From Haloterrigena sp. KLK7 (GTDB lineage: Archaea; Halobacteriota; Halobacteria; Halobacteriales; Natrialbaceae), in NCBI RefSeq assembly GCF_037914945.1, contig NZ_CP149787.1:3720001-3784000 (forward strand): a stretch of 64,000 nt of DNA, given 5' to 3'. The notes beneath the pieces are model-generated. The model saw only the letters and a list, made by a program, of their open reading frames with translations. It was not told the DNA's origin and did not search any database. Position numbers and translations under genes: made by a program. Positions 4,232 to 64,000 of the stretch are shown here, in pieces. Each line of letters opens with the position of its first letter. Position 1 is the first letter of the stretch.

Positions 4232-5749
4232 ATGAGTTCGTCACAGCAGGCATCGAAATCGACCGATCGACCCCGGACGGCGCTCGAGCGATTCCGCGCG
4301 GTCGCGAGGCCGCGCCTGGGCGTCGATCCGCGAGCGCTCGGCGCGTTTCGAATCGCGCTGGGAGTGCTCTTGCTCGCCGATCTGGCGTTCCTCCGGATGC
4401 CGGGACTGATTCCCTTCTACACCGACGACGGCGTCTTCCCGCGGTCGGCGCTCGCCGACGTCTATCCGACGTTCGCGGCCGCGTCGCTCCACGCGGTGTC
4501 CGGCGCGGCGTGGGTGCAGGGGATGCTGTTCGCGATCGCCGGCGTCGCCGCCGCGTGTCTGCTCGTCGGCTACCGGACGAAGCCCTCGCTGGGGCTCTCG
4601 CTGCTCCTGTCGGCCTCGCTGTTCGCCCGGAACCCGCACGTGGTCAACGGCGGCGACACCATCCTGCTCACGTTCCTGTTTCTGGGCCTGTTCCTGCCCC
4701 TCGACGCGCGCTGGTCGCTCGGCGGCGGTCAGCAGAGCGACGACGCCCGCGGCCGGAATCGACCGGTCTACTCGCTCGGGACGGCGATACTCTGCGTCCA
4801 CTTCGCGACCATCTACGCGGCGAGCGCGGTCCACAAGTACCAGAGCGACGCGTGGCTGTCCGGGACGGCGGTACCTCGAATCTTCCACCTCGAGGAGTAC
4901 ATCGTGCTACTCGGCCCGTCGCTCGCCGAGTTCCGCGCCGTCCTCACCGCGATCAACTGGGTCTGGGTCGCTCTGCTCTCCGTCTCGCCGTTCCTGATTC
5001 TGTACACCGGGCGGCCGCGGGCCGCACTCGCCGCCGCGTTCGGCTGCGCCCACCTCGGGATGGCCGCGACGATGCGCCTGGGCGCGTTCCCGTTCGTCAT
5101 GATCGCCGGCCTGCTCCTGTTCTTCCCGGCGTCGGTCTGGGACCGACTCGAGCGGGCCACAGCAACTGTCGGCCCGGCCCTCCGTCAGCGGCTCCCGTCC
5201 TCGATTCGATCGCATCGAATCGACGGGGTCGGACCGCTGTTGCCCGACTCGAGGCCCCACGTTCCTCGCGTTCGGCGGGGCGTCCGGGTCGGGAGCACCG
5301 CGCTGCTCGTCGGTGTCTTCGTCGCGCTCCTCCTCTGGCAGGCGGCGGGCCTCGGGATCGCCGAGGATTCGACGCCGGATCTGGACGGCGAGCTCTCGGA
5401 GGTGAGCTGGTCGTTCTTCGCGCCGAACCCGCCAGATACCTCGAGCCGGTACGCGATCGAGGCGACCCTCGAGTCCGGCGAGACGATCGACGCGGTCGAC
5501 GGCGGCGAGGTCGCGTTCGACCGTCCGCCGGACGCCGCCGAGACGTACCCGACGACCCTCTGGCACCGATACGGCGTCGATATGCGCTACGCCGGCGAGT
5601 CGCAGTACGAACCGGCGGCGGCGTACGTCTGCGAGGCGGTGGATCGGGACCTCGAGTCGGTGACGATCTATCACGTCGAGCAGCCGGTCGACGCGGACGG
5701 GCCGGTCGGCGATCCGGTCGTGACCGAACGGATCACCAGGGGATGTTAA
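4232..5749 (+). CDS. HTTM-domain (vitamin K-dependent carboxylase-like) membrane protein
   Basis: A 505-residue multi-pass membrane protein. After a basic N-terminal segment the sequence has the HTTM-family layout: RALGAFRIALGVLLLADL, LIPFYTDDGVFPR, then further hydrophobic segments, with the family-typical NGGDTILLTFLFLGLFLPLD near residue 150. About eight membrane segments are apparent; residues about 380-505 form a soluble, probably external domain (SWSFFAPNPP onward). HTTM stands for horizontally transferred transmembrane domain; the family shares its membrane core with vitamin K gamma-carboxylase, but activity in haloarchaea is unknown. Monocistronic; the start follows a TATA-like element at about -35. 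Confidence 0.8.
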   Translation: MSSSQQASKSTDRPRTALERFRAVARPRLGVDPRALGAFRIALGVLLLADLAFLRMPGLIPFYTDDGVFPRSALADVYPTFAAASLHAVSGAAWVQGMLFAIAGVAAACLLVGYRTKPSLGLSLLLSASLFARNPHVVNGGDTILLTFLFLGLFLPLDARWSLGGGQQSDDARGRNRPVYSLGTAILCVHFATIYAASAVHKYQSDAWLSGTAVPRIFHLEEYIVLLGPSLAEFRAVLTAINWVWVALLSVSPFLILYTGRPRAALAAAFGCAHLGMAATMRLGAFPFVMIAGLLLFFPASVWDRLERATATVGPALRQRLPSSIRSHRIDGVGPLLPDSRPHVPRVRRGVRVGSTALLVGVFVALLLWQAAGLGIAEDSTPDLDGELSEVSWSFFAPNPPDTSSRYAIEATLESGETIDAVDGGEVAFDRPPDAAETYPTTLWHRYGVDMRYAGESQYEPAAAYVCEAVDRDLESVTIYHVEQPVDADGPVGDPVVTERITRGC

Positions 5750-5756
5750 CGGGAAT

Positions 5757-5994
5757 ACTCCATTTCCTTTCAAGAGAGTCCGGTCGAACCACTCAGTCAC
5801 TCCGTGTGCGATCGCCACGACGGAGATCGAGTTGACCGAGAAGAGATCCTCGAAGATATCTAGGTCGGAGATGACGTCGATCCTAAACACCCGCGGAGGG
5901 CGTAGCAGTTGGCTGCTAATCGACTCCTCGAGTTCGGTGTCAGCCCGCACAGGGGCGACAACGCACTCGATATCGGCACCGATGATAGCCAGTA
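5757..5994 (-). pseudogene. Possible gene remnant, unrecognised protein
   Basis: Between two rightward genes the minus strand stays open with codons ending mainly in G or C and a non-shadow-like peptide containing ADIECVVAPVRADTELEE, RVFRIDVISDLDIFEDLF and IAHGVTEWFDRTLLKGNG. No clear start codon, ribosome binding site or promoter was found, and I do not recognise the protein. It could be the degraded end of a lost gene. Support is limited to composition and the absence of stops in a non-coding gap. Confidence 0.22.
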
Positions 5995-6026
5995 ATCTTA
6001 TCGTGAAACCATCCAATTTTGCTGAT

Positions 6027-7082
6027 ATGAATCGACGAACGGTGCTCCTTGCGAGCGGTGTCACACTCTCGACTGCGCTGGCCGGCTGTTCTGGTGATAC
6101 GGACGAAAACAGTGACGGAAACGGGACTGGGAACGGCAACGAAACAGAACCTGAAAACGGAACCGAAAACAGCACCGAAAGCGAGACTGCAAATAGCGAC
6201 GAAGACGGCGAGGAAGAATCAGGGAACGAAGACGTCGACGACGTCGAGGCGGTCGTCGGCTCACTCGTTGAGGGCGAGAACATCCATCTCGTCGTCGAAG
6301 ATACTGAGACCACTACCCAGATCGGGGATTTTCAAGAAGCCGACAGCGGTACCGAATACCTTATCGCCACGCTCGCGATGAAGAACGTCTCAGAGGACTT
6401 CATCAACGTCTCCCAACTGCTCCAGACGTCCGTTCGCGACGACGAGGGGTATTCGTACACACAGTCGCTCGCCGTCACCGATCAGCCATCGTTCGATGGC
6501 GGTCAGTTCGTCCCCGGCGAAGTCGAACGCGGTACGATCGTCTTCGAACTGCCCCAGGATGCGACCGGGCGAACCCTCGAGTTCGATTTCGACGTCGACC
6601 TCATCGGAGGGGTCAATCGCGCCGAGATCGACCTCGAGGACGAGACTGGCGTTCATACTCTCGAACAGGATCTCGCGATCGACGTCCACGATGTCGGTGA
6701 GACGGTCGGCTTCAGCGATGTCTCGGTAACGGTCAACGGGGTCGAGTTCGAAAGCGAACTCGGTCGCTATACCCAACCTGACGAAGGCAACGAGTACGCG
6801 ATCGTCGATATTTCTATTGAGAACAACTCAGGTGAAGAACAGTCCGTCTCGACCATGCTGCAGATGCTCGTCAAAGACGGCGCGGGCTGGAGCTATCAGG
6901 AGGATCTGATGGCGGCCTCGCAACTGGATCGAGCGTTTGACGAGGGCTTGCCGCTCTCGGACGGGGAGACGCGGCGCGGCCAGCTCGCCTACGAGGTCGA
7001 ACAGGGCCTGCACTCGCTCTACTGGGTGTTCGAATTCTCCCTTTGGACCGAGGGCGATAAGACGTTTTGGCGACTTCGCTGA
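6027..7082 (+). CDS. Secreted lipoprotein with two DUF4352-like domains
   Basis: A 351-residue lipoprotein. I chose the ATG at 6027 over an upstream frame extension because it yields a twin-arginine lipoprotein signal (NRRTVLLASGVTLSTALAGC, lipobox Cys near residue 20) and follows a TATA-like cttatcg at about -28. A Thr/Asn/Asp/Glu/Gly-rich linker (about 21-75) leads into two related beta-rich segments (about 85-190 and 215-350), each with YLIATLAMKNVSED / YAIVDISIENNSGEE type strands typical of DUF4352 or telokin-like domains. It is likely exported by Tat and lipid-anchored outside the cell. Function is unknown. GC is lower than in neighbouring genes. Confidence 0.78.
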   Translation: MNRRTVLLASGVTLSTALAGCSGDTDENSDGNGTGNGNETEPENGTENSTESETANSDEDGEEESGNEDVDDVEAVVGSLVEGENIHLVVEDTETTTQIGDFQEADSGTEYLIATLAMKNVSEDFINVSQLLQTSVRDDEGYSYTQSLAVTDQPSFDGGQFVPGEVERGTIVFELPQDATGRTLEFDFDVDLIGGVNRAEIDLEDETGVHTLEQDLAIDVHDVGETVGFSDVSVTVNGVEFESELGRYTQPDEGNEYAIVDISIENNSGEEQSVSTMLQMLVKDGAGWSYQEDLMAASQLDRAFDEGLPLSDGETRRGQLAYEVEQGLHSLYWVFEFSLWTEGDKTFWRLR

Positions 7083-52178: not shown

Positions 52179-52748
52179 ATGACCGACGAGTCGCCGCCAG
52201 TTCCCGAGGCAGTGCTCACGAGCGCGACGGAGCGACTCGAGGCCGAGGACCGCTCGCTCGCGGACAACGAGGAACTGCTCCGCGCGCTGAGCGATCTGAC
52301 GCCGATCTACGAGACCGAGCGCTCGTATTTCGTCCTCGGGAACTACGATCCCGGACCGATGGGCCGGCTGGATCTCGTCGTCGACCGCCTCAACCGGCGC
52401 GACGACGCCTACGCGTTCCTCATGAGCGACGTCCGCGGCGACTGGGAGAACGGCATCGCGAAGTTCTGCCTGATCGCGGACCTCGTGAGCCACGTCGTCG
52501 GCGTCGCCGAGAAAGAGCCCAGCGGCTTCCTCGTCGAACAGGGGCTGCTCGCGGGCACCGAGGAGTACTTCGAGAAGACCCACGTCCTGAAGCGGGCGTA
52601 CCCCGACGCCGACGAGGACCACCCGTACGGCTGGATGGAGGACGGCGTCTTCGAGTTGTTCGAGTCCGAGGGACGGCTCTACGAGTGGCGGACCGAGGAT
52701 GAACTGCGCGAGGTCATCGCGGAAATTCCGTCATCTACCCACGGCTAA
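52179..52748 (+). CDS. Hypothetical protein, 3' end abutting a TnpB element
   Basis: A 189-residue acidic soluble protein that I do not recognise. Visible segments: LADNEELLRALSDLTPIYETERSYFVLGNYDPG, DAYAFLMSDVRGDWENGIAKFCLIADLVSHVVGVAEKEP and HPYGWMEDGVFELFESEGRLYEWRTEDELREVIAEIP. Its last residues (SSTHG) are coded by the end hairpin of the TnpB element, so the natural C-terminus may be missing. Divergent from the winged-helix regulator gene, which has operator-like palindromes between them, so it may be a target of it. Confidence 0.68.
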   Translation: MTDESPPVPEAVLTSATERLEAEDRSLADNEELLRALSDLTPIYETERSYFVLGNYDPGPMGRLDLVVDRLNRRDDAYAFLMSDVRGDWENGIAKFCLIADLVSHVVGVAEKEPSGFLVEQGLLAGTEEYFEKTHVLKRAYPDADEDHPYGWMEDGVFELFESEGRLYEWRTEDELREVIAEIPSSTHG

Positions 52749-53985
52749 AGCCGTGGGCTTGAGCGTGGGACTCCCCTTCTGCCGACACGGTGTCGTAGGC
52801 GGTGTAATCGCCGTTCAGGGTCACTGTCCCGCTCTTGAGGGCGAGATGACCGTCGCCCAACCCCGAGGGGCGTTTGCCCTCGGGTAAAGAGAGTAGTCGC
52901 TTCCCGATGTTCTTGGAAGCGTTGTAGTCGCCGTCTCCCTCGTATCCGCACTCGTTGCACTCGAACCACCCATCCGAATTCCGGTTCGTGCTTGATTGAT
53001 GGCCGCACTTCGAGCAGGTCTGCGAGGAGAACGCGGGGTTCACGCTCTCGACGCGAATCCCGTACTCGGTGGCTTTCCACTGAATCATCTCCTGTAACTC
53101 GCGGAACGCCCATTGGTGCATCTGGCGTTTCAGTTGGTCGTCGGAGGCGTCCATCCGCTCGCGGATGTGGGTCAAGTCTTCGACGGCGATGTGCGAGCAG
53201 TCGTAGTGGCGGGCTTCTTCCACAATGCGTCGAGAAATGGTATGCAGGCGATCCAAGACGAAGCGGTTTTCTCGCCCCGACAGTCGCGCTAACGCCTGCT
53301 TCGCGGAGCGAGTGCCTTTGTCTTGGAGGCTCCGACGCACGCGGAAGTAGTGGTTCTGCCCCCACAGTAATTCACCGCCGTCGTAGAACGACCCCGTGCT
53401 GGTCACGGCGACGTTCTTCAGATTCAGGTCAACGCCGAGAACGCGGTCGCCCTCACGCTCCTCGACTTCTTTCTGAATGACGATGTGGAGGTAGAAGTCG
53501 TCCTCTTGTTCGTCGTAGTGGAGCGTCCCCATTCGTTTCTCGTAGTCGTCGTCATCGAGGTAGTCGGCCTGATATTCACCAATGTCGAAGTCGACCTCGA
53601 CGCGGGACTCGACAGTTGAGAGGGTCGCGCTCCTCTCGTTGATCGTCAGGGTGCGTTTATCGTAGACGACGGTGGGCTGGTCGAACGTCGGGACTGGACG
53701 ACTGTTGCCCTTCTTCCAGTCGGCGACCGTGGATTTCATCATTTCAACTGCCTTCGAATAGGCGCGAACACAGAGGTTTGCGGGAAGGGCAGTCACGTCA
53801 CGGAGATCGTGGTAGACTTTATCGTGGATGTTCGTCTTCGCAGTGATGAGGTAGCCGTCGTCGTTGCGACCGTTCTCGATGCTATAATTGACGGCAGTAT
53901 TGAATTGCTCGATGGTCTGGTGGAGGTGGTCTCGTCGCTCGTCGGGCACGTCGAGTTTGACCCGAACGGCACGTTGCACCTCCAT
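52735..53985 (-). CDS. tnpB: RNA-guided endonuclease TnpB (IS1341-type)
   Basis: A 416-residue TnpB. RuvC-like catalytic residues Asp186 (GVDLN), Glu269 (AVEDL) and Asp353 (DGDYNASKN) are all present, and a zinc finger C-S-K-C (324-327)/C-N-E-C (343-346) is intact, so the nuclease looks functional. TnpB proteins are guided by an RNA made from the element's right end and help the element persist. The gene has its own promoter (tatataaac near 54012-54020). Its last codons lie inside the right-end hairpin. Confidence 0.95.
   Translation of the reverse strand: MEVQRAVRVKLDVPDERRDHLHQTIEQFNTAVNYSIENGRNDDGYLITAKTNIHDKVYHDLRDVTALPANLCVRAYSKAVEMMKSTVADWKKGNSRPVPTFDQPTVVYDKRTLTINERSATLSTVESRVEVDFDIGEYQADYLDDDDYEKRMGTLHYDEQEDDFYLHIVIQKEVEEREGDRVLGVDLNLKNVAVTSTGSFYDGGELLWGQNHYFRVRRSLQDKGTRSAKQALARLSGRENRFVLDRLHTISRRIVEEARHYDCSHIAVEDLTHIRERMDASDDQLKRQMHQWAFRELQEMIQWKATEYGIRVESVNPAFSSQTCSKCGHQSSTNRNSDGWFECNECGYEGDGDYNASKNIGKRLLSLPEGKRPSGLGDGHLALKSGTVTLNGDYTAYDTVSAEGESHAQAHGFSRG
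52738..52757 (-). ncRNA. Right-end hairpin of the TnpB element (probable guide-RNA scaffold)
   Basis: Perfect stem cccacggc / gccgtggg with loop taaa, lying at the 3' end of tnpB. In TnpB elements this region is transcribed as the reRNA/omegaRNA whose 3' flank gives the guide. The RNA borders were not determined. Confidence 0.5.
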
Positions 53986-55661: not shown

Positions 55662-56819
55662 TTACAGGGAGTCGCTGTTGAGCCGCTCGATACCGGTCCT
55701 GACTCCGAGGTAGCCGCCGACCGCGAGCAGACAGTAGGTCGCGAGCGACAGCCACGTCGTCGCCGTGGCGCTGCCGATGGCGAACTTGGCGACGGTGTTG
55801 GCCGGGTGCTCGGGGAGCAGCGTGGCCAGGACCAGCGCGCCGACGATCCCGCCGGAGTAGGCCAGTTGCGCCTGTCGCCTGTCGGGGGCGACGAGCGCGA
55901 TGCCGGCCCCCGCCGCGGTGACGGCGAGCGCCAGCGCCGCGACCAGGACGACCAACGCCGTCGGCGCGGCGATCGCGGTCCCGTTGGCCGCGAGCAGGGC
56001 GAGCCAGGCGACCGCCTGAATCGGCGCCAGCGCGGCGATCGTCAGGAGCTTCGCGTCGGCCACGTCCACGAGCGAGAGCGGACTGACTCGGAGCAACTCC
56101 AGCGTCCCCCGGGAGCGCTCCTCGATCAGCGAATCGACGACGATCGAGCCGCTGATGAACACCGGCAGGAACAGCAACAGCGGGACGAGGATCGTGTAGG
56201 TGAACTCGAGGTACGGACTCGCCCCGACCTCATCGGGGACATCGAGCGGCGGCGCCTCCAAGGCGTCGGCGTTGGCGAGTCGCTCCTCGTGCTCGAGGGT
56301 CTCGAGCAGCTCCTGGAGCTGGCTGATCAGCAGGGTCGTCTCCAGCCCCCCGTCGGGAACGGTCGCGTCGACGACCAATCGTCCGTCCGCGGTTCTGCTC
56401 ACCTCGAGGACGGCCGCGACCTGCCCCTCGTCGAAGGCCGAGAGCGCGTCGGCCCTGGACTGAGCGATCGTCGGCTCGAGCCCGTCCTGTTCGCCGGCGA
56501 GACTGCTGAGTCGCTCGACGTCCGCCTCGTTTGCACCGGTGATGGCGACCCGGTTGCCGTAGCCGTCGACGGAGCCCGGATCGTACAGCGAGACGAGCCC
56601 GACGACCAGAAACGAGGAGAAGGCCGCGATAACGAGCTGGATCGCCAGCGCGAGCACGATCGTCTTCTCGGAGCGGAGCGAGCCGAGTTCGCGGCGGGCG
56701 AGGGCCCAGCGCGGGCCGAACGGCAGTCCGAATCGGGAATCAGCGTCGTCGGCCGGTTTCGGCGGATTCGGTCCGCGTCGAATCGGCGTCGACTCGTCGC
56801 TCGAGCGATCACGCGACAA
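55662..56819 (-). CDS. ABC-2 type exporter permease (second permease)
   Basis: A 385-residue ABC-2 membrane protein: one N-terminal helix (TIVLALAIQLVIAAFSSFLVVGLVSL, about residues 53-78), a large extracytoplasmic domain (about 80-205), then five helices. The cytoplasmic coupling segment ERSRGTLELLRVSPLSLVDVADAKLLT is typical of NatB/CcmB-like ABC-2 permeases. It is the last gene of an operon with an ATPase (58749-59792) and a permease-protease fusion (56809-58752); the fusion and this gene overlap by 11 bases, so the three would assemble as one exporter. Confidence 0.88.
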   Translation of the reverse strand: MSRDRSSDESTPIRRGPNPPKPADDADSRFGLPFGPRWALARRELGSLRSEKTIVLALAIQLVIAAFSSFLVVGLVSLYDPGSVDGYGNRVAITGANEADVERLSSLAGEQDGLEPTIAQSRADALSAFDEGQVAAVLEVSRTADGRLVVDATVPDGGLETTLLISQLQELLETLEHEERLANADALEAPPLDVPDEVGASPYLEFTYTILVPLLLFLPVFISGSIVVDSLIEERSRGTLELLRVSPLSLVDVADAKLLTIAALAPIQAVAWLALLAANGTAIAAPTALVVLVAALALAVTAAGAGIALVAPDRRQAQLAYSGGIVGALVLATLLPEHPANTVAKFAIGSATATTWLSLATYCLLAVGGYLGVRTGIERLNSDSL

Positions 56820-58748
56820 GGGCGATCACCCCCAGGTTGTAGCCCGCGTGAACGAGCGTCGCGAGCAGGAACCCCACCGAGTACGCGTTCGGTCCGCGGC
56901 TCGCGCCGATCGCCGATATCATCGCCGTCGCGACGTGCAAGACCAGCGGCGCGAGGAAGACTGCTGCGAGCACGAGCGGGCCGCCCGAGGGGTCGGGACC
57001 GAACGCGGCGGCGCCGACGGTCAGCTCGGGGAGGCCGACGAACTGGACGACGTGCGTGAGCTTCTCGCCGACGAAGAAGCCGGCGCCGGAGCAGACGCCG
57101 AGGACGGCGGCGACGCGCGGAGAGGCCTCGAACCGCGAGCGGACGAAGCCGGCGTAGACGTGGACGCTCTTCGCGACCTCCTCGATTGCCGCCGCGAGGA
57201 CGACGATGGAAACCGTGGCGACGACGGGATACTGTTCGGCGACGGCGAACAGGAGGGCGACGACGAGCAACTGGCCGGCGAAGACGAAGGGGATGAACAG
57301 GATCGTCAGAACGGCGACGCTCCGGTAGCCGTGCAGTCGGCTCGCGATCGCGTCGAGCACCTTCGCCGGGAGCGCCTTCTGGGCGAACATGTCCTCCTCG
57401 CGGTAGACGCCGATTCCGAGCAGGAAACAGACCGCGGCGCCGCAGTAGAACGGCGCGGTCGAGAAGACGTACTCCCCGAGCGTGACCGACTCGCCCTGCA
57501 GATCCGTCACGATCAGCGTCAGCGGCGAGATCAGCGCGATCGGGTTCACGTCGGTGAACACCGCCGGGATAAACGTGTACGTCGTCAGGAAGACGCTGAT
57601 CGTGACCGTCACGAAGGTGAGCTCCTTGTACGAGCGGGCGAGCATCGCGCCGGCGAACGTCGCCGCGAGGAACAGCAGCGCGATCGGAATCGCCGCGGCG
57701 ACCGAGAGGGGACCGCCGCGGACCGCGACGGTGATCCCGACCGCGACGGCGATCAGCCCCAGCAGGTACGGCAGCGTCTTTCCGGCGACGATCTCGCGTC
57801 TCGAGGACGGCGAGACCAACAGTAGTTCGCCGCGGCGTTTGACCCGCTCGTCCATGATCGTGCTCCCGTAGGCCTGAATGACGAAGTTCATCGGGACGAC
57901 GAAGAGGAACGCCAACAGGAGCGACTGGAAGGGAAACGGCGGCGAGATCGATCCCGGCGGTCCGGACGTCCCGTCGACTGCGCCGTTGGCGCCGCCGATG
58001 TTCGGCACCTGCAGTCGACCGTCTCCGCCGTTATCGGCCGCATCGCTCTGCCCGCCGCCGTCGGTGTCCCCGCTGGAATCGCCGTCGCTACTGGAACCGT
58101 CGCCGCTCGAGCCCTCCCCGTCAGAGCCGTTACCGTTCGAGCCCTCGCTACCGGACCCGTCAGTCGTTCCGGTTCCGGTCCCGTCGTCCGAGCCGTCAGT
58201 CGACGCCCCGTCGCTCCCGTCGCCCTCGGTCGATCCGTCGAAATCGCGCTCCTGGTAGTCGAGTTCGACGTGGACCGGGTAGGCCGCCGTCTCGTTGTCC
58301 TCCCGGCGCAAGCGATCCTCGTTGTACGAATCGATCGCATCGATGAACGCGTCGTGGGCGGCCTCCCCGTGAGGGCCGTAGTGGACGATCTCGCCGTTCC
58401 GCGTCAGTACCACGTCGGCGTTGGCGTCGTCGCCGTTCTCGATCACGAGCTCGTCGAGGGAGATGGGTCTGAACGCCTCGCTCTCGACGGCGACGTCGTG
58501 GTACCGACTGTCCTCGTCGACCGCGACGACGTAGATCTCGTCCTCGAGGCCGAGTCCCTCGCCGGCGGCCGAAAGGCCGACGACGCCGACGACGAGCACC
58601 AGCGCCGCCAGCACGAGCACCGCCTTCCGATCGACGGTGCCCGCGCTCCGGGAAATCTCCCAGCGGGAGATCCGCGCCGTCCGCGCCAGCGTTCCGCGGA
58701 GTCGGCGACGCCGCGAGCGCCGATCCGGATCGTCGTCGGGCTCGTCGC

Positions 58749-58752
<4 letters not shown>
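56809..58752 (-). CDS. ABC-2 exporter permease fused to a PrsW-like intramembrane protease
   Basis: A 647-residue fusion. Residues 1-455 are an ABC-2 permease: helix 44-62, a large external domain (70-270) ending in a Ser/Gly/Asp/Thr-rich linker (172-245), five more helices, and the coupling loop DERVKRRGELLLVSPSSRREIVAGKTLPYL. Residues 475-647 add about five helices with the PrsW/CPBP-type residues Glu524-Glu525-x-x-Lys528 (AAIEEVAKS), Glu563 (GFFVGEKLTH), His606 (LHVATA) and His635 (VHAGYN). PrsW proteases cleave membrane proteins such as anti-sigma factors. Overlaps the ATPase gene by 4 bases and the next permease by 11. Known role of the fused form: none I can name. Confidence 0.88.
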
Positions 58753-59792
<1,040 letters not shown>

Positions 59793-60410: not shown

Positions 60411-62501
60411 TTACGCTGTCGCGCCCGTGTCCGTTTTCTCCGTCACATACCACAACCGTGGGGCTCCTGAGAACTGGAGATACAACGCGTGAAGCTGGAT
60501 GAACCAGCCGAACACGATCCACAGGTAGGCGTATCCGATGACCTGCACCACCCGTTTCGGCGTTGAAGGGAGCGGGATCTTCGGATCGCGAAGGGCCGCG
60601 TACCCGAACGAGACGGCTCGTGCGGGAAGGAGGACTACCGCGAGGATAATCGCTACGTACGTCGGGAATGGGGGAGCGAGTCCCAGATACCACAGGATCA
60701 TGATTACCGGGAACATCGTGGACAATGGGGCGCTCACAGACGTGAACAACAGCCATTCGATTCCGAGTGTCCGTTTGAATCCCAACTTCCGGCGCGACTC
60801 CAGAATGTCTCCGAAGTGGCGTACTGCCGCTTGGGCCCAACCCCGTGCCCAGCGGATGCGTTGGCGCACCAGGGCGTGAAGGGTTGCGGGGTGATATTCC
60901 CACCCCACCATCTCGGAGTCGTATTCGACGATCCAATCGGTCTCAGTATACATGCGGAGCGTGAAATCGATGTCTTCCGTCAATGCGTCGGGATCCCATC
61001 CACCTGCTTCCGGTGGAACTTCACGCCGAAACATCGCTATAGATCCCCCGAAATGACCGGCCCCGAACACGTCATCAACGAACGGGTGGTCAACCCACGT
61101 ACTGTGCTGTCGCTCGATACTCACAAACCGTGAAAAGGCGTCAGCGTCTGGATGGGTCGCTGCTTTCCGACCCTGTACCATACCTACCTCCGGACGTTCA
61201 CGGAGCGTCTGTAACCCTCGTGCAACGGTCTCGGACTCGATTCGTTCGTCAGCGTCCAAGATGAACGCGTATTCCGTGTCGATGTGCTCCCACGCTTGAT
61301 TCAAATCGCCAGCTTTGGATCCGGACGTACCCTCGACCACGCGGACGTGATCGCGCTCGTCCGCGAACTCCCGTGCGATTTCGACGGTACCGTCGTCGGA
61401 CTTCGCCGCCGGAACGATGACGAACGGAACGCGTCGCCCGAGCGCTTCGATATTGTGAGAGAGGCTCTCCGGCAGAACGTTCGCTTCGAACGCTGCGACG
61501 ACGATTATCGTCACGGATGCGTTATCCTCCAACGGCGGTGGTGAGTCCCCGTCCCGCCCTTTCCGGCGATGTGCGTGAACGACCTGCGAGTATTCGATCA
61601 TCGCAGCGATAGCGATCCAAACGAGGAACATCCCGATAACCACGTAGAACGCCCACGTGGACAGGAGGATAATCGCGAGCATCAGGACGTTCAACAGCAT
61701 AATGACGGTTGCTCCGTGCTGGAGCACAGTAGCGAACGTCCCGGTGAACGACTCGACGATATTCGGTGGCGACGGAGGGAGCGAGAGAACGGCGAGACTC
61801 AGTACGACGGTCGCGCCCGTCACCGTCACCGCCAGCCCCTCACCAGTCGGAGACTGAATCACTTCATCGGACGGAACGGTGAAACCCACTACGGCGACGC
61901 TAAATAATCCGCACAGGAGTATCAGCAGCAGTGCCGCTTCCCAAGGGGTCATCGTATCCGAGTCGGCCGGGACGTCATCCGCGAGTTGCCGCATCCAAAA
62001 CGCGTGGAGGATGAGGGACGCGAATCCCGTGGAGTAGACGACTAACGCAACTCCCGGGTCGAAGGGACCGAGCCAATCGAGCACCAGTGCGGATCCCGTA
62101 AGCATCGCTCCGTGGCCTAGAAGCGGCAGCCGCCACGTCTGTTGGGTCGTGTCCGGCGGACGAACGTCCAAAATGAGCAGCAGCGCTTGAAGACTCGTGG
62201 CCAATGCGACGGCCCGTAACTCCGTCGAGACGCGTGGAGGTGCGAAATTGGAGCCGACTACCCCTGCGACGAGCAGTACCACTAGTCCGACGACGAAGAC
62301 GGGGGTACCGCCCAACGGCTCCATCTCGTCTTCCCGAATTCGCACGTCGACGGAGAGAAGGGACAGGACGACGAGCGCGATCGCGCCGATAAACAGGAAT
62401 CCCTCTTCGCTCGGCAACCACTCGACCCCCACACTGACGACTCCGAATAGCGCTAGCCCCGTCGCGATATACCAGACGCGTTCTCGGAGGTGTGAAACCA
62501 C
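60411..62501 (-). CDS. Family 2 glycosyltransferase, processive type, with extra N-terminal membrane domain
   Basis: A 696-residue membrane enzyme. Residues 1-310 are about eight helices not typical of GT2; residues 330-560 are the GT-A catalytic domain with SVTIIVVAAFE, DAD-E (FILDADERIES), the acceptor-base TEDIDFTLRMYTETDW, and the QxxRW-like RQRIRWARGW; residues 570-690 add four helices. This order is shared with cellulose/hyaluronan-synthase-like enzymes, implying synthesis and export of a beta-linked polysaccharide from a UDP-sugar. The start is GTG at 62501. The gene has lower GC than neighbours and abuts AT-rich DNA. Confidence 0.85.
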   Translation of the reverse strand: MVSHLRERVWYIATGLALFGVVSVGVEWLPSEEGFLFIGAIALVVLSLLSVDVRIREDEMEPLGGTPVFVVGLVVLLVAGVVGSNFAPPRVSTELRAVALATSLQALLLILDVRPPDTTQQTWRLPLLGHGAMLTGSALVLDWLGPFDPGVALVVYSTGFASLILHAFWMRQLADDVPADSDTMTPWEAALLLILLCGLFSVAVVGFTVPSDEVIQSPTGEGLAVTVTGATVVLSLAVLSLPPSPPNIVESFTGTFATVLQHGATVIMLLNVLMLAIILLSTWAFYVVIGMFLVWIAIAAMIEYSQVVHAHRRKGRDGDSPPPLEDNASVTIIVVAAFEANVLPESLSHNIEALGRRVPFVIVPAAKSDDGTVEIAREFADERDHVRVVEGTSGSKAGDLNQAWEHIDTEYAFILDADERIESETVARGLQTLRERPEVGMVQGRKAATHPDADAFSRFVSIERQHSTWVDHPFVDDVFGAGHFGGSIAMFRREVPPEAGGWDPDALTEDIDFTLRMYTETDWIVEYDSEMVGWEYHPATLHALVRQRIRWARGWAQAAVRHFGDILESRRKLGFKRTLGIEWLLFTSVSAPLSTMFPVIMILWYLGLAPPFPTYVAIILAVVLLPARAVSFGYAALRDPKIPLPSTPKRVVQVIGYAYLWIVFGWFIQLHALYLQFSGAPRLWYVTEKTDTGATA

Positions 62502-63116: not shown

Positions 63117-63461
63117 ATGTCATCGCCCCAGACGGAACCCCGCGAGCGAAACGACGATGCCTGCCCCGTTATCGCTTCCCTCGAGCAGATCGGCTCCCAG
63201 TGGCGGCTGGCGGTCCTCCACGAACTCCTGTCCGGCGAGCAGCGCTTCAACGAACTCAAGCGCTCGACCGGCGCGAACGCCCGCACCCTCTCGCGCGTGC
63301 TCGACGACTTAGGCGAGATGGGATTCGTCGAACGCCGCCTCGAGGAGGACGCCCCGATCGCGACCTACTACAGCCTCACCGACAAGGGCGAGTCCCTCGA
63401 GCCGGTCTTCGACGAGATCGAGTGCTGGGCCGGCTCGTGGCTCGAGGAGTGCGACGCCTAG
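63117..63461 (+). CDS. HxlR-family transcriptional regulator
   Basis: A 114-residue winged-helix regulator of the HxlR (MarR-related) class. The hallmark CPVIASLEQIGSQWRLAVLHELLSGEQRFNELKRSTGANARTLSRVLDDLGEMGFVERR occupies residues 16-75, with the N-terminal cysteine that in some relatives is a redox/electrophile sensor (Cys16). It likely acts as a dimer. The next gene to the right is a pirin preceded by a palindrome, a typical HxlR target arrangement; pirin regulation by this protein is inference. Confidence 0.93.
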   Translation: MSSPQTEPRERNDDACPVIASLEQIGSQWRLAVLHELLSGEQRFNELKRSTGANARTLSRVLDDLGEMGFVERRLEEDAPIATYYSLTDKGESLEPVFDEIECWAGSWLEECDA

Positions 63462-63563: not shown

Positions 63564-64000
63564 ATGGTCTCATCCGAGTCCCGCGGGACTCCCGACGGTC
63601 CGGTTTCCGGTGAAACCGTGCGACACGGGACGGGCGTGAATTCGAACCGCGCGTTTCCGACGAACAGCTATCCGACCAATCTGGACCCGTTCGTGTTGTT
63701 CGAGCGCTTCTATATCGATCCCGACGAGGGATTTCCGATGCATCCCCACCGCGGGTTCGAGATCGTCTCCTACATGCTCGAGGGCGGGATGGAACACGAG
63801 GACTCGCTCGGCGTTACGAACACCGCGTACGAGAACGACGCGATGCGGATCACGGCGGGTTCGGGGATTCGTCACTCCGAATTTCCCGCAGACGGAGGGG
63901 GCTGTAGCGGCCTCCAGCTCTGGGTGAACCTTCCGCGAGACGAGAAGGAGACCGAGCCGGACTACGAGGACGCGACGGCCGACGACCTCCCGACCGAGGA
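63564..64000 (+). CDS. Pirin family protein, partial
   Basis: The frame opens with ATG at 63564 and runs to the window edge (145 residues visible). Features of the pirin N-terminal cupin: DPFVLFERFYIDPDEGFPMHPHRGFEIVSYMLEGGMEHEDSLG with iron-binding His residues in HPHRGFE and HEDS, then ITAGSGIRHSEFP and LQLWVNLP. Pirins are Fe-dependent, some act as quercetinase or redox regulators. The C-terminal half is outside the window. Preceded by a palindrome, probably controlled by the upstream HxlR regulator. Confidence 0.93.
   Translation, partial: MVSSESRGTPDGPVSGETVRHGTGVNSNRAFPTNSYPTNLDPFVLFERFYIDPDEGFPMHPHRGFEIVSYMLEGGMEHEDSLGVTNTAYENDAMRITAGSGIRHSEFPADGGGCSGLQLWVNLPRDEKETEPDYEDATADDLPTE

Follow-up and report, generated by a model that had tools for sequence, protein, structure and literature searches.

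The three-gene cluster

The window analysed here, a 64,000-nucleotide stretch of DNA from Haloterrigena sp. KLK7, carries three adjacent genes on the minus strand, the middle one of which encodes an ABC-2 permease and a PrsW-type domain in a single chain. The genes and the features of the permease half are as follows.

58749-59792, minus strand: ABC ATPase, 347 aa, with a DrrA1-3_C domain (Pfam and motif reading)
56809-58752, minus strand: fusion gene, ABC-2 permease with a C-terminal PrsW-type protease domain, 647 aa, GTG start
55662-56819, minus strand: second ABC-2 permease, 385 aa (ABC2_membrane_3, 56.9 bits)
57388-58752, minus strand: ABC-2 permease half of the fusion, residues 1-455 (TM1, external domain, TM2-TM6)
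58273-58536, minus strand: small alpha/beta external domain, residues 73-160, between TM1 and TM2 (model, pLDDT about 75-88)
57937-58251, minus strand: Ser/Gly/Asp-rich disordered linker, residues 168-272, in the external domain (pLDDT <50, composition)

The position, strand and length of the fusion gene were verified on the sequence, as were the residues singled out in a preliminary description of it (Glu524, Glu525, Lys528, Glu563, His606 and His635). That description had also placed the ATPase and second permease genes on either side with overlaps; the ATPase frame overlaps the start of the fusion gene by 4 bases, and the frame of the second permease overlaps its end by 11 bases. This overlapping layout suggests that the three genes form one transcript with coupled translation. 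The single chain reported earlier is a true fusion. It is one open frame in all 30 aligned relatives and in nearly all listed matches from 212 Halobacteria genomes, which rules out a frameshift or an assembly artefact.

The ATPase motifs expected of an ABC-2 (type V) exporter are intact (Walker A GPNGAGKT, signature MSKGM, Walker B VLIFDEP, and switch His in SAHN), and the second permease exceeds the Pfam cut-off for its permease profile. When the whole chain was searched, the fused permease scored 24.2 bits against ABC2_membrane_2, just under the cut-off of 27.2. In the full-length model, TM1 spans residues 42-64 and TM2-TM6 reach residue 449; with this model, Foldseek returned weak fold matches of the permease half to NosY and ABCA1. 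The external domain contains the long Ser/Gly/Asp linker noticed before, and the length of this linker varies among relatives in an alignment of 30.

By sequence, the closest solved relatives of the ATPase are ABCA lipid exporters and NosF; no solved structure was matched by the second permease. The cluster resembles ABCA, DrrAB, and NosFY in having an ATPase with a DrrA-type C-terminal domain and ABC-2 permeases, and the fused permease shares with these exporters an external domain after TM1. Many exporters of the ABCA/NosF type handle membrane-embedded or membrane-associated substrates. We know of no ABCA, DrrAB, or NosFY exporter that has a protease domain.

A PrsW-type domain at the C terminus of the permease

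The C-terminal block of the fusion and its conserved residues map as follows.

56809-57345, minus strand: PrsW-type protease domain, residues 470-647 plus stop, five helices (PF13367, 26.7 bits)
57169-57183, minus strand: motif 1, EExxK (Glu524, Glu525, Lys528), invariant in 107/107
57061-57069, minus strand: motif 2, GEK (Glu563, Lys564), both charged residues invariant in 107/107
56935-56937, minus strand: motif 3, His606, invariant in 107/107
56836-56850, minus strand: motif 4, HxxYN (His635, Asn639), His invariant, position 639 always Asn or Asp

The PrsW domain was not listed in a profile search with the whole chain and scored only when searched alone: residues 465-647 matched PF13367 (PrsW) with 26.9 bits, above the Pfam cut-off of 23.5. 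The preliminary description had made its PrsW assignment depend on such a profile match, and a match was found. Scores are low throughout the fused group, in which 15 of 40 domains reach an E value of 0.01; many relatives pass the cut-off, but some do not, and fused domains score 20-39 bits, compared with 130-160 for separate haloarchaeal PrsW proteins. In a profile comparison, alignment of the fused domain with a profile of 24 separate haloarchaeal PrsW proteins gave an hhalign probability of 95 (E value of 4e-8). The alignment pairs the two EExxK motifs, sets the Glu in GEK against that in GFATIEN and His606 against the His in GPGHVIYSA, and brings HxxYN together with IHATYN. EExxK, a Glu on the next helix, a His, and HxxxD/N follow one another on successive helices, in agreement with the published description of the PrsW motifs (PMC4602095). 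By these comparisons, the C-terminal block is a PrsW-type protease domain. Its four motifs match those of PrsW (PF13367, MEROPS M82), including the separate haloarchaeal proteins, in both order and register; it differs from them in being distant, in its fusion to an ABC permease, in its shorter five-helix core, and in having GEK rather than IEN as motif 2. The protease profile matched no solved structure by sequence.

The full-length model places five hydrophobic helices at residues 476-505 (kinked), 509-537, 545-572, 591-618, and 621-646. Each of the last four helices carries one of the four motifs. An AlphaFold model of the domain alone had a pLDDT of 90.1 and a pTM of 0.86. Its best PDB fold matches in Foldseek, individually weak, include APH-1 of gamma-secretase (TM score of 0.49), which we take as a hint only because the E value is about 1; a relationship between APH-1 and PrsW has been stated in the literature (PMC4602095). 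For the protease half, Foldseek with the full-length model gave nothing informative, and the domain model had no match in a viral structure library. Whether the motif residues would meet in the membrane, the other condition named in the preliminary description, was approached indirectly, through the motif register shared with PrsW, the confident domain model, and the weak APH-1 hint.

Conservation of the motif residues was examined first in 30 aligned relatives and then in 107 fused proteins, 20 of them from other classes of the phylum. The residues are kept in every one, including relatives at only about 25-30% identity. Among 40 domains ranging down to 23% identity, eight columns are invariant, namely, the six residues named earlier together with one Lys and one Pro. 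The chance that six named positions out of 178 would all fall among the eight invariant ones is near 1e-9, a figure that takes no account of the fact that charged residues in membrane helices tend to be conserved in any case. Given this invariance, chance occurrence of the motif residues is rejected. The domain is very probably a built-in protease under selection for catalysis.

Distribution, linkage, and history

Among 292 Halobacteria genomes, the protease domain was found in 212, with an open frame that could hold the whole fusion in nearly all matches listed, and the second permease was found in 216, matching the presence of the fusion. All three genes are kept together in 30 of 30 close relatives. 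The fusion also has a length of about 520-640 aa in other classes of the phylum, where it is directly followed by the second permease in each of the 20 loci fetched; the ATPase lies nearby in 17 of these, mostly in the opposite orientation and starting beside the fusion, and was not found by the locus search in the remaining 3. The earlier proposal that the protease is a built-in part of the exporter is supported by these data, since the genes co-occur and stay linked where gene order differs. The trio is missing from about a quarter of Halobacteria and is therefore not essential.

In a tree, a branch with full support divides all the fused domains from the separate PrsW proteins; this is compatible with one old fusion, though several rows are long-branched. 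A separate, high-scoring PrsW is present in nearly every Halobacteria genome sampled, so the fused domain represents a second, distinct PrsW family in these cells. The Haloterrigena genome itself has such a protein (G000:C1:2034347-2034922, L031; 146.7 bits). A 573-aa open frame elsewhere in the genome with a CPBP match was considered as a second fusion and rejected, as the protein in it is an ordinary CPBP-type membrane protein no longer than 387 aa. A divergent branch outside Halobacteria (L163-L166, L168, L172) has proteins of about 527-614 aa with a shortened loop before the His606 helix and retains all motif residues.

One genome (G128) has a good match to the second permease and none to the protease. 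Its locus retains the ATPase and the first two-thirds of the fusion, and after the truncated fusion the second permease resumes from residue 82 in another frame (L208, about 4567-6683). This is apparently a decayed copy in which a single deletion removed the whole protease domain together with the start of the second permease, which was thereby damaged. In a search of plasmid records, only a Haladaptatus plasmid matched. The orthologue there is annotated "ABC transporter permease subunit" without reference to a protease, so that the protease half has been overlooked in that record.

Clustering of neighbours across 100 loci gave no fourth conserved gene; thus, no substrate is encoded beside the trio in a conserved way, and the suggestion that a lipoprotein or sortase-like substrate gene would lie nearby was not supported. 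The commonest neighbour, an HxlR-type regulator gene upstream on the other strand, occurs in 39 haloarchaeal loci and none elsewhere. It and an aldo/keto reductase gene were rejected as linked partners and attributed to local synteny within Halobacteria. In the window, the HxlR-type regulator gene (63117-63461, plus strand) is followed by a pirin gene (63564-63998, plus strand). Also upstream of the trio is a gene for a 696-aa glycosyltransferase of family 2 whose two ends contain hydrophobic stretches (60411-62501, minus strand), and a TnpB-like protein of 416 aa with OrfB_IS605 and Cas12f1-like TNB domains is encoded at 52735-53985 (minus strand). A reading of the cluster as a defence system was discarded, as PADLOC had no hit for either permease and gave the ATPase only generic matches.

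Proposed role and alternatives

We interpret the three genes as an ABC exporter of the ABCA/DrrA/NosFY type in which one permease chain carries a probably active PrsW-type intramembrane protease. The fusion suggests a machine in which proteins or peptides embedded in the membrane are cut and the pieces then pumped out. Processing of membrane-embedded peptides or anchors in this manner is the most likely role, to which we assign a probability of roughly one-half. The protease half would receive a substrate embedded in the membrane and cleave it there; candidate substrates are leftover signal peptides, lipoprotein leaders, and membrane-protein anchors. Driven by ATP, the two permease chains would then pull the hydrophobic product from the bilayer and release it outside, or clear it. 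Here, we infer the proteolytic activity, the coupling, the direction, and the substrate.

This proposal draws on an analogy with Firmicutes. In Staphylococcus aureus, the production and release of peptides derived from lipoprotein leaders require both Eep and EcsAB (PMC7157817), and in Bacillus subtilis, loss of EcsAB blocks intramembrane proteolysis, with EcsAB possibly cleaning the membrane of peptides (PMC2996298). As proposed for the haloarchaeal cluster, an ABC transporter and an intramembrane protease act in one pathway (EcsAB or PptAB with Eep or RasP; PMC7157817, PMC2996298), but there they are separate proteins and the protease is a site-2 metalloprotease. The parallel is functional only. 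The pump and the PrsW domain could also share a substrate path, such that extraction gates or powers cleavage, in an ATP-coupled intramembrane protease inherited since an early ancestor of the phylum; we regard this as speculative and rather less than probable.

Alternatively, the exporter might serve as a sensor or gate, moving a lipid or drug, and its transport state might switch the PrsW domain to cut a membrane-bound regulator, on the model of PrsW cutting the anti-sigma factor RsiW in Bacillus. The founder of the PrsW family is indeed a site-1 signalling protease (PMC4602095, PMC9263693). The HxlR-type regulator upstream of the haloarchaeal loci would fit such a scheme, but outside Halobacteria the trio has neither a conserved regulator nor a conserved membrane-bound partner. 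In addition, the sigma/anti-sigma system in which PrsW works in Bacillus is, to our knowledge, absent from archaea. We consider a signalling role of this kind unlikely.

Quality control of membrane proteins, in which the ABC motor would extract or unwind damaged proteins and feed them to the fused protease, appears more doubtful again. The union of motor and protease in one chain and the housekeeping-like pattern of the trio, which is widespread, old, and without a linked substrate, are what such a function would lead one to expect; however, the ATPase resembles exporters of lipids and small molecules, not unfoldases, and about a quarter of Halobacteria do without the trio. The alternative least compatible with the invariant residues, and a quite improbable one, is that the PrsW-like domain is no longer a protease and serves the exporter as a membrane scaffold or in substrate binding, much as APH-1 does in gamma-secretase: the weak Foldseek similarity to this nonproteolytic superfamily member and the GEK of motif 2 in place of IEN point that way, but the catalytic-type Glu, Lys, and His residues are all invariant across the phylum, even in far relatives, and a pure scaffold would not need them.

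The interest of the cluster rests on its deep conservation and on a plausible, proposed coupling of ATP-driven extraction to intramembrane cleavage. The action of intramembrane proteases leaves behind hydrophobic fragments that stay in the bilayer, and little is understood about their clearance or export. In Firmicutes, protease and ABC transporter are separate proteins linked by genetics, whereas here they are one polypeptide; as this polypeptide is conserved across much of the phylum, the coupling should be directly testable in the genetically tractable genus Haloferax, several species of which carry it.

We found no paper on a PrsW-ABC fusion in archaea in the open-access literature, within which the archaeal PrsW-type fusion appears undescribed. 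Fusion of an ABC permease to a protease is already a recognised kind, since NCBIfam names one in NF041647, a profile of 636 positions with the permease first and a CPBP-clan protease at the C terminus of one chain. The window fusion gives no match to NF041647, and only the second permease matches it, weakly (23.4 bits against a cut-off of 435), by resemblance to the permease half of the profile. The two fusions may be independent, because the protease is of the CPBP type in NF041647 and of the PrsW type here. The myxosortase MrtX (CPBP) is likewise a prokaryotic intramembrane protease of the wider superfamily and processes surface proteins at their membrane anchor (PMC11980579); it differs in being a separate 239-aa protein without fusion to an ABC permease.
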